DNA of 64,000 bases from Corynebacterium liangguodongii (GTDB lineage Bacteria; Actinomycetota; Actinomycetes; Mycobacteriales; Mycobacteriaceae): contig NZ_CP026948.1 of assembly GCF_003070865.1 (NCBI RefSeq), forward strand, positions 868,001-932,000, in the 5' to 3' direction. The notes beneath the pieces are model-generated. The model did not search any database. It worked only from the letters and a program-made list of their open reading frames with translations, and was not told where the DNA came from. Shown here in pieces: positions 31,055 through 32,775 of the stretch; positions within the stretch are counted from its first letter, which is position 1, and every line of letters starts with the position of its first letter. The position numbers and the translations under genes were made by a program.

Positions 31055-31060
31055 AAAGTA
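31055..31060 (-). promoter_or_regulatory. -10 box of the small SOS-type gene, leaderless
   Basis: TACTTT on the minus strand, 7 nt before the ATG at 31047. The LexA-type palindrome lies about 32 bp further upstream, overlapping the expected -35 region. Confidence 0.45.
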
Positions 31061-31091
31061 GAACACCGGTGCGACACGGCATGAACGGATG

Positions 31092-31107
31092 TAGAACATT
31101 TGTTCTA
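31092..31107. promoter_or_regulatory. LexA box (SOS operator)
   Basis: TAGAACATTTGTTCTA is a perfect palindrome containing GAAC-N4-GTTC, the core of the Gram-positive/actinobacterial LexA site. It lies 45 bp upstream of the small minus-strand gene at 30598-31047. A weaker half-match (GAAC-ACCG-GTGC) lies nearer the gene at 31061-31072. Confidence 0.72.
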
Positions 31108-31131: not shown

Positions 31132-31160
31132 TCTCCAGAGCGCGAAGGGCTCTCTGGAGA
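31132..31160. repeat. Hairpin at the head of the palindrome array
   Basis: TCTCCAGAG at 31132-31140 and CTCTGGAGA at 31152-31160 form a 9-bp perfect stem with an 11-nt loop. It immediately precedes the tandem palindromes and is unrelated to them in sequence. Confidence 0.6.
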
Positions 31161-31168
31161 GGATTGTG

Positions 31169-31490
31169 ACTCTGCAGCTGCAGAGTGGGAAGGGTTTCGG
31201 CCTCGGCGGGGGCTCCGCATTGCGGAGTTTTCCGGCCCGTCCCTCGACTCCGCAGCTGCAGAGTGAACCTCCCGCTGACTCCGCATTGCGGAGTTTTCCG
31301 GCCCGTCCCTCGACTCCGCAGTTGCAGAGTCACCCCCTGTGGACTCCGCATTGCGGAGTTTTTCCGGCCGCACCTCGACTCCGCAGTTGCAGAGTGAACT
31401 TCCCGCTGACTCCGCGTTGCGGAGTTTTTTCGGCCGCACCTCGACTCCGCAGCTGCAGAGTCACCCCCGCAGGCTCCGCAGCTGCAGAGT
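31169..31490. repeat. Tandem array of two alternating palindromes, 65/66-bp period
   Basis: Two palindromes alternate. Type B (ACTCYGCAGYTGCRGAGT, 18 bp) occurs at 31169, 31247, 31313, 31378, 31444 and 31473. Type A (ACTCCGCATTGCGGAGT, 17 bp) occurs at about 31212, 31278, 31343 and 31409. Copies of each are spaced 66, 65 and 66 bp apart. Every A palindrome is followed by a run of 4 to 6 T, so each resembles a Rho-independent terminator in the plus direction. The joining segments are also repeated, in two alternating versions (GAACCTCCCGCTG and CACCCCCTGTGG types). The array ends 77 bp before the MFS permease start. It is not coding: the frame is not kept. Confidence 0.85.
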
Positions 31491-31566
31491 CATCCAACCT
31501 CGAATGAAGCCGCGCGCACCACCCCGCGCCACCGAGATGGCTTGTGAGGGCTACCCTGAGGTCGAC

Positions 31567-32775
31567 ATGTCTACACCGTTGCCCTCGCAGTCCTCCGCGC
31601 CGAAGATCCCGGCCACCATCTGGGTGCTGACAGCCGCAGCCTTTGTCATTGCGCTCGGATACGGGTTTATTGCGCCCATTCTTCCGCAGTTCACGGCAAG
31701 CTTTGGTGTGTCCATGGCCGCTGCTGGTGCTGTGGTCTCTGTCTTCGCCGCCGCCCGCCTTCTTGGTGCGCCGGGTGCGGGGCTTCTGGTGGATAAGCTC
31801 GGCTCCCGGCCTGTCTACATAGCGGGCCTGCTCATCGTCGCTGTATCTACGTTCTTTGTTGCGTATGCGCAGGCGTATTGGCACGTCTTCGCCTTGCGCT
31901 TTATCGCGGGGTTTGGCTCGACGATGTTTACTCTCTCCGCCCAGGCCCTCATTGTGAGGGTTGCGCCGCCGACGATCCGCGGCCGCGCGAGCGCGGTGTA
32001 CGCTTCTGCGTTCCTGCTCGGCAACATCATTGGCCCCATCATGGGGGCGCTGCTCGCCTCCCTCGGATACCGCATCCCGTTTGCCGTCTACGGCGCGGGC
32101 GTTGCTTTGGCCGCGGGGATCGTGTGGGTGGCCACCTCCTCCCCGAGGCGCCGGGCGCCGCTCCCGCCGAAGCTCCCCCCGATGCGGTTTGCAGACGCCG
32201 CTGCGTTGCCAACGTACCAGGCGCTGTTGACCTCTGGTTTTGCTAACGGGTGGGCGAACTTGGGCGCGCGGGTGTCCGTCTTGCCGCTGTTCGCGGCCAG
32301 CGTCTTCGCTAATGGCGCCGCTGCCGCGGGTCTGGCGCTCACAGCGTTCGCGGTGGGAACCGCGATTACGTTGCAGTTCTCCGGGCGCTTGGCTGATAGG
32401 TTGGGGCGCAAGCCGCTGATTGTCGCAGGCCTGGCCGCTACAGCGGTGTTTACGGGCTTCCTCGGCTTTGCCACAAGCGTGTGGGCGCTGCTTCTTATGT
32501 CCGTCTGTGCCGGGGTGGGCGGCGGGTTGATGAACCCGGCTCAGCAGGCGGCGTTGGCGGATATCGTCGGCAATGAGCGCTCAGGCGGTAAGGTACTCTC
32601 GACGTTTCAGATGACGATGGACGCGGGCCAGATTTTCGCCCCGATTATCGTGGGCATGTTGGCGCAGTCCGTCGGGTTTGCCGCCGCTTTTGCTTCGTGC
32701 GGGGCGATCGCTGCGGTGTCTTTGGCAGTGTGGCTGGTGCGCGGGGTTGACACCCTCGCAGCGGAAAAGAACTAG
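31567..32775 (+). CDS. Major facilitator superfamily permease
   Basis: 402 residues with about twelve membrane helices. The loop 2-3 motif is GLLVDKLGSRP (about residues 75-85) and its pseudo-repeat in the second half is GRLADRLGRKP, typical of MFS proton antiporters and exporters. ATG 31567 follows a TGAGG ribosome-like site and a TACCCT hexamer. The open frame extends back through the palindrome array but that part is repeat DNA, not protein. A nucleoside hydrolase gene starts 4 bp after its stop, so a nucleoside or base is a possible substrate, though drug export is equally compatible. Confidence 0.87.
   Translation: MSTPLPSQSSAPKIPATIWVLTAAAFVIALGYGFIAPILPQFTASFGVSMAAAGAVVSVFAAARLLGAPGAGLLVDKLGSRPVYIAGLLIVAVSTFFVAYAQAYWHVFALRFIAGFGSTMFTLSAQALIVRVAPPTIRGRASAVYASAFLLGNIIGPIMGALLASLGYRIPFAVYGAGVALAAGIVWVATSSPRRRAPLPPKLPPMRFADAAALPTYQALLTSGFANGWANLGARVSVLPLFAASVFANGAAAAGLALTAFAVGTAITLQFSGRLADRLGRKPLIVAGLAATAVFTGFLGFATSVWALLLMSVCAGVGGGLMNPAQQAALADIVGNERSGGKVLSTFQMTMDAGQIFAPIIVGMLAQSVGFAAAFASCGAIAAVSLAVWLVRGVDTLAAEKN

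Follow-up and report, generated by a model that had tools for sequence, protein, structure and literature searches.

A tandem array of alternating palindromes in Corynebacterium liangguodongii looks like an amplified copy of a dispersed palindromic repeat

An array of short palindromes occupies positions 31169-31490 of a 64-kb stretch (the window, G000:C1:868001-932000) of the 2.36 Mb chromosome of Corynebacterium liangguodongii (G000). As the original prediction had it, the array lies between a gene preceded by a LexA-like box and an MFS permease gene, and both neighbours were seen (Table 1). The divergent gene has no Pfam or NCBIfam match; it is preceded, at 31059-31107, by two LexA-like boxes, the first good and the second weak (TAGAACATTTGTTCTA, TAGAACACCGGTGCGA). 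An inverted repeat with 12-bp arms (TCTCCAGAGCGC...GCTCTCTGGAGA) is found at 31132-31160, between the LexA-like box and the array, and the same intergenic region of the relative G020 holds a different one (CTGAGGT...ACCTCAG). The nearest relatives are G020 and G021, with 83% identity of the MFS protein. By eye, TACCCT can be placed at 31552-31557, nine bases before ATG 31567 of the MFS gene, with similar hexamers before the MFS start in relatives (TACGCT in G009, G002 and G016; TAGCCT in G020). Judged from these motifs, a leaderless MFS promoter probably sits just before the ATG, which would leave the array upstream of it; the promoter scan predicted no MFS promoter.

The array itself is composed of six 18-bp and four 17-bp palindromes with a 65/66-bp period (direct-repeat spacing 66, 66, 65), as originally described. 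A strict palindrome pattern gives 10 matches in the window, all within the array, whereas 20 windows simulated by a first-order Markov model gave no match. The alternation that had been proposed holds over most of the array, but it is broken at the 3' end because the last two 18-mers are adjacent. Likewise, the 18-mer is a perfect palindrome in only one of six copies, that at 31169, whereas a C.A mismatch (CTCC...AGAG) is present in each of the remaining five, and the G allowed by the R of the proposed consensus occurs in no window copy. In the window array and at places A and B (see below), the half-sites of the 18-mers vary between C and T and between G and A (CTCC/CTCT, GGAG/AGAG), a transition at CpG that matches what deamination of methylated C would give. 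Two of the four 17-mers are exactly ACTCCGCATTGCGGAGT, and their 3' T-runs measure 4, 4, 5 and 6 when the last T of the palindrome is counted, in agreement with the 4-6 T first noted. The 17-mers would form hairpins of about -10 kcal/mol followed by these T-runs on the + strand; the array folded as a whole is more stable on the - strand (-188 vs -170 kcal/mol), and the terminator scan has no array hairpin among its predictions. A DNA uptake sequence is not supported, as the window shows no excess of single half-sites (beyond the array, its 64 kb contain ASTCCGCA once, against 5.7 expected by chance). Rfam offers no identity either, its best match, isrG, reaching 18.1 bits (E 0.026), far under the cut-off of 100.

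Table 1. Features of the window (window coordinates) and places in the chromosome that hold the palindromes (A to K, chromosome coordinates)
Feature	Position	Strand	Remarks
Divergent gene with LexA-like box, 149 aa	30598..31047	-	syntenic in relatives
18-bp palindrome 1	31169..31186	.	ACTCTGCAGCTGCAGAGT, perfect
17-bp palindrome 1	31212..31228	+	GCTCCGCATTGCGGAGT, then TTT and CCGG
18-bp palindrome 2	31247..31264	.	one C.A mismatch
Whole repeat unit	31247..31312	+	18-mer, 13 bp, 17-mer, TTTTCCGG..
17-bp palindrome 2	31278..31294	+	ACTCCGCATTGCGGAGT, then TTT
18-bp palindrome 3	31313..31330	.	
17-bp palindrome 3	31343..31359	+	then TTTT
18-bp palindrome 4	31378..31395	.	
17-bp palindrome 4	31409..31425	+	ACTCCGCGTTGCGGAGT, then TTTTT
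18-bp palindrome 5	31444..31461	.	
18-bp palindrome 6	31473..31490	.	GCTCCGCAGCTGCAGAGT; no 17-mer separating it from palindrome 5
MFS permease	31567..32775	+	context gene; found without array in relatives
Place A	192015		array
Place B	268891		array
Place C	335975		array
Place D	540279		single 18+17 unit
Place E	630794		inverted pair
Place F	window array		array
Place G	1065756		single 18+17 unit
Place H	1315964		array
Place I	1278061		array
Place J	828302		one core
Place K	1807306		one core

The 66-bp unit and its palindromes are dispersed over the chromosome. The pattern CTCYGCRN{1,2}YGCRGAG has 57 strict matches genome-wide vs 2 for the reversed pattern, and the 13-bp core TCCGCANTGCGGA occurs 20 times vs 0 in the reversed control. 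At least 11 places, all outside called genes or at a gene edge, were counted. Lone strict matches were left out of this count (283396, 334708, 501663, 1246181, 1296601 and 1876622); those at 501663, 1246181 and 1876622 lie inside called genes, and those at 283396 and 334708 between genes or at a gene edge, so 11 is a lower bound. The match at G000:C1:334708 (L019 2709), CTCCGCAGCTGCGGAG, is an isolated 18-bp site with perfect symmetry that falls in the rplJ-rplL leader region, immediately before the probable start of rplJ. Place H displays the 65/66 alternation of the window on the other strand, and place A contains the unit three times among extra 18-mers. With spacers included, the window unit shares 86% identity with one of the A units, 80% with one in H and 70% with that of D. 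Start-to-start distances are 30-31/34-35 in F and H, 34/37/77/85 in B and 31-45 in A.

At several of these places the corresponding sites in relatives hold no strict palindrome. The MFS and divergent LexA-box genes occur together in G020, G021, G009, G016 and G002 by clear DNA matches, in G022 by fragmentary ones and in G019 from the appearance of the sequence, and no strict palindrome was found at site F in any of these seven; when 3 mismatches were allowed, G002, G020 and G021 gave one match each, inside the divergent gene. Nor was a strict match found at site G (rpsA-coaE) or site H (dxs) in G020, G021, G009 and G022, with 344 bases masked at the G021 dxs, or at site B (SerB-like gene) in G020, G009 and G022, the masked flank of G021 having been dropped. 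The RNase H-fold loci of G020 and G021 likewise lack a strict match at site D, whose orthology is doubtful as the RNase H-fold identity is 47 and 44%. The suggestion that the array serves as serial attenuators for the permease was rejected for the window, as the setting is divergent, the palindromes lie upstream of the probable leaderless promoter and the neighbours occur without the array in relatives. A link to neighbouring genes in general also fell away, since copies are scattered genome-wide with no tie to their flanks, the very outcome that had been named beforehand as contrary to it. The observation is real and not tied to neighbouring genes, and is of a known sort, the intergenic palindromic repeat.

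Copy number also changes between close relatives. At one array locus common to G020 and G021, with flanks about 95% identical, there are 11 vs 7 palindromes; G020 has an extra block of four palindromes (43+43+54+54 = 194 bp), the length difference between the aligned stretches being 193 bp, a block-wise change. At a second locus the G020 array spans about 620 bp, and the G021 counterpart of about 215 bp holds only a related variant, ACTCTGCCGTGGCAGAGT. The mycobacterial MIRU-VNTR minisatellites are tandem units of about 50-100 bp found at several intergenic loci, with copy number varying between close genomes. Compared by layout and not by sequence, the present repeat resembles them in its tandem units and in the differing copy number at the shared locus; it differs in that its units are built from two palindromes of one half-site.

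When the genus was searched for the repeat, as had been proposed, TCCGCANTGCGGA was found in 121 of 242 genomes (the organism's own included) and was absent from the other 121, with 5 or more copies in 29 (range 5-43; reversed control 0-2). Outside the genus the maximum is 4 copies, and none of 387 genomes of the order reaches 5 (397 were searched, 10 of them from the genus). Other species have arrays of their own, with periods of 61-67 in G068, 61 in part of G202 and 43-54 in L195 of G020. The statement that no described family has this alternation stands for the literature searched; it needs qualifying in that similar 17- and 18-bp palindromes lie side by side in two other species, G020 (L193, L200) and G162 (L202). 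By eye, the L200 and L202 arrays share long spacer sequences as well as palindromes, and at least one array is therefore older than the split of the two species or has been exchanged. A loose palindrome pattern gives 34 matches in G036 and 13 in G026, and a tighter one 2 and 0, so that these genomes possibly contain a different palindrome family. A second repeat module, made of inverted repeats resembling CCAATNATTGG, is often found close to the core in G061 (L277-L279) and G106 (L281-L282). Visual inspection of these two genomes hinted at a second hairpin next to the core; as a general feature it is not supported, since no extra structure emerged in 138 flanks on the downstream side (mean z -0.04) and 134 on the upstream side (mean z 0.09), out of 166, with flanks holding another palindrome dropped and 33 C/G-centre copies excluded.

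Searches of wider collections add little to this distribution. The alternation pattern has 10 matches in the genome_contigs collection (84,980 species), none titled Corynebacterium, in a search that may leave out records near the window's genome and whose pattern would miss the G020 and G162 variants. Plasmids gave no match to the window array. Viral contigs yielded 16 stretches with one site each, seen on both strands; judged informally, these look like background, and a phage origin was rejected.

Within 10 arrays, palindromes are 85-100% identical and like-length spacers 57-80% (two arrays contribute a single spacer pair), a difference that is partly built in because the palindromes were found by pattern. 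A CRISPR array, for which unique spacers are expected, was rejected on these spacer identities. The greater likeness of the palindromes would suit a protein-binding array: ASTCYGCA half-sites around a centre of 1 or 2 bp would be recognised by a conserved dimeric protein, and the sites would form a platform for a nucleoid organiser, a silencer or titration, while the copies may still be travelling on mobile elements. Arrays of one 13-bp core recur in many species with different flanks, which fits selection for the core and speaks against a neutral, IS-borne repeat. The outermost pair points the same way: among 166 copies it is C.C in 62, G-C in 33, C-G in 29 and G.G in 14, and no covariation is seen (71/166 paired vs 64 expected, the core being invariant by search design), as would be the case for independently read half-sites in double-stranded DNA. 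RNA-level selection on the outer stem was rejected for the same lack of covariation. However, the start-to-start distances have no common helical phase, the distribution is patchy, with half of the genus genomes devoid of a match, and orthologous sites lack palindromes. Binding by a protein is regarded as possible but rather unlikely.

The outer pair and the flanks also bear on a role as serial terminators or attenuators, in which each 17-mer with its T-run would end transcripts, so as to shield the permease or adjust its expression, or to insulate adjacent operons. The 17-mer hairpins with their 4-6 T on the + strand are of the right form, and at places A, D and H the palindromes follow a gene in the orientation needed for termination; a hairpin and T-run behind an upstream gene, as in an intrinsic terminator, is present at A and H, though not in the window and not over the family. 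The genes flanking the window array are divergent and the probable MFS promoter lies on its downstream side; the array hairpins went unlisted in the terminator scan, and the - strand gives the more stable fold. Around 53 palindrome groups the genes are tandem in 19, convergent in 7 and divergent in 6, with 8 groups falling within genes and 13 of unclear setting. These assignments come from a simple gene finder that overlooked the LexA-box gene and scored the window as tandem, so individual ones may be in error. Among the groups with a called upstream gene, the window genes being set by hand, 12/34 are co-oriented with the core and 22 anti (two-sided p 0.12). In several species T-runs are absent, and neither covariation of the outer pair nor extra structure beside the core is seen. 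Serial termination is improbable as an account of the array, even if single hairpins may stop some transcripts.

Dispersed intergenic palindromes, clusters, species-specific expansions and tandem reiteration are also features of REP/BIME and RPE repeats, as portrayed in the available portions of four papers (PMC3733652, PMC12306157, PMC2817692, PMC3116915), and the mixed or head-to-tail clusters of intergenic palindromes observed here would also fit an ordinary REP/BIME family that depends for its movement on a REP-associated tyrosine transposase (RAYT). The present repeat differs from these in its shorter core (13 bp), in the lack of a RAYT and of a GTAG/CGTC tag, and in having IS21-like ends instead. 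The transposase domain Y1_Tnp (PF01797) occurs in 5 of the 242 genus genomes (G018, G141, G150, G231, G232), each with 0 core copies and none palindrome-rich, and is absent from the organism's own genome; the flanks of the 166 copies show AS...ST and no tetranucleotide tag. Membership of this class was rejected because its defining transposase is lacking in palindrome-rich genomes, and such an origin is very improbable, barring an unrelated transposase in the same role. The word stem Corynebacteri is absent from the main texts of PMC3733652 and PMC12306157.

IS ends are found at some copies. At A, D and G the sequence continues into ends of the TTTTCCGGGTGGGCTACTTTTC type, at J into a diverged version, and ends like those at A, D and G bound a complete istA/istB element of 2.1 kb in G020 (istA NF033546, E 8.9e-58; istB PF01695, E 6.3e-75; both over cut-offs). 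Profiles of the IS ends detect both ends at A (L016; E 1.3e-6 and 0.002), at J (L261; E 6.1e-7 and 4e-4) and, weakly, at G (L264; E 0.0083 and 0.19), one end at D (L021; E 4.8e-5) and a doubtful match at K (E 0.24). In total, IS21-like ends adjoin palindromes at 4/11 places and both ends at 3/11, one of them weak. IS-related ends on both sides of a short non-coding interior, as in an IS21 MITE, are thus present at A, at J and weakly at G, and not at the window array, in which the profile search found no match. The 8-bp TTTTCCGG that follows most window 17-mers does match subterminal IS sequence, short as this match is. At A the IS end follows the last unit without a break, which makes the T-run and CCGG behind the 17-mer of that unit part of the IS.

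In other species the two components are arranged in several ways. In G074 and G089 palindromes are located 5 and about 35 bp inside single IS-end-like sites, and at L207 (G162) and L189 (G020) an IS end adjoins the array, with the IS itself outside it. At L207 2000-2045 the IS21-like end ..GCGCTGACA abuts the palindrome TCCGCATTGCGGAGT, an arrangement that resembles insertion of the IS at the palindrome edge. Complete IS21 copies have no palindrome inside. Judged by eye, one G020 IS copy (L255) has a 5-bp target-site duplication, GCTTT, and those of the miniature copies are not clean, being at best 4 bp and imperfect at J and decayed at G and A. The IS21-like copy at L255 1021-4650 is interrupted by a Mutator-family transposase gene, and a shorter Mutator transposase frame is found beside array A (L016 1569-2591).

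Across the genus, three or more IS-end-like sites occur in 14/29 palindrome-rich genomes vs 9/213 others (Fisher 1.9e-9), and six or more in 12/29 vs 3/213 (3.0e-10), an association that ignores phylogeny and in which the reversed control reaches 3 in single genomes. Fewer than three such sites are found in 15/29 rich genomes and none in seven (G061, G106, G016, G156, G184, G188, G216), indicating that the palindrome can persist or spread without the IS, which is therefore not a full account.

Taken together, the repeat is best explained as a palindromic unit that is mobile, with IS21-like miniature elements as carriers of at least some copies, and amplified in tandem, neutral or mildly selfish and with incidental hairpins, a reading to which we assign a probability of about 60%. 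Among the three roles originally proposed, that of a mobile palindromic element is the best supported, through the dispersed copies, empty sites and IS21-like ends. The unit would have travelled as the internal part of a miniature IS21-like element, on whose ends IstA and IstB, complete in a relative, would act in trans. After insertion, the interior may have been multiplied by slippage or unequal recombination, aided by the hairpin-forming palindromes; at the window site the IS ends would have been lost, or the unit may have arrived without them. On this view, the T-runs would be left over from subterminal IS sequence, with no need for selection as terminators. The window array looks like a lineage-specific, tandemly amplified copy of the dispersed repeat, one that is expandable and not a switch for a neighbouring gene. 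An extension of this origin to a corynebacterial DNA-binding system is unlikely: a conserved dimeric protein would read ASTCYGCA at 17- or 18-bp parity, IS21-derived miniature elements would seed the sites, and tandem expansion would turn a selfish repeat into binding arrays, separately in several species, as multi-site platforms organising or silencing the chromosome.

The unit has counterparts among MITEs and MITE-derived repeats (ERIC, RUP, SPRITE, QMITE), as described in passages of a review (PMC10969869): copies at A, G and J are short and non-coding, with IS-derived ends around a palindromic interior, and the repeat is intergenic with empty sites in relatives. It differs from them in its IS21-like parent, in the tandem interior at A and in the many copies, the window's included, that lack IS ends; 'IS21' does not occur in the text of that review. 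A literature text search, with most subscription journals outside its coverage, found the exact repeat strings in none of 5.39 million papers and, among the papers listed, no description of a corynebacterial palindromic, REP-like or MITE family that matches this repeat. Two corynebacterial papers (PMC4696348, PMC3350403) treat REPs and MITEs in general terms only, or CRISPRs, in the parts available.

The finding adds a patchily distributed palindromic repeat family to a genus for which the literature search gave none, and associates palindromic repeats with an IS21-type element, and not with the RAYT transposases that explain REPs. Strain typing could draw on the arrays as variable-number loci, and the repeat provides a bait for any protein that may recognise TCCGCAWTGCGGA. 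If the IS21 link holds, it would represent a second route for the origin and expansion of bacterial palindromic repeats.
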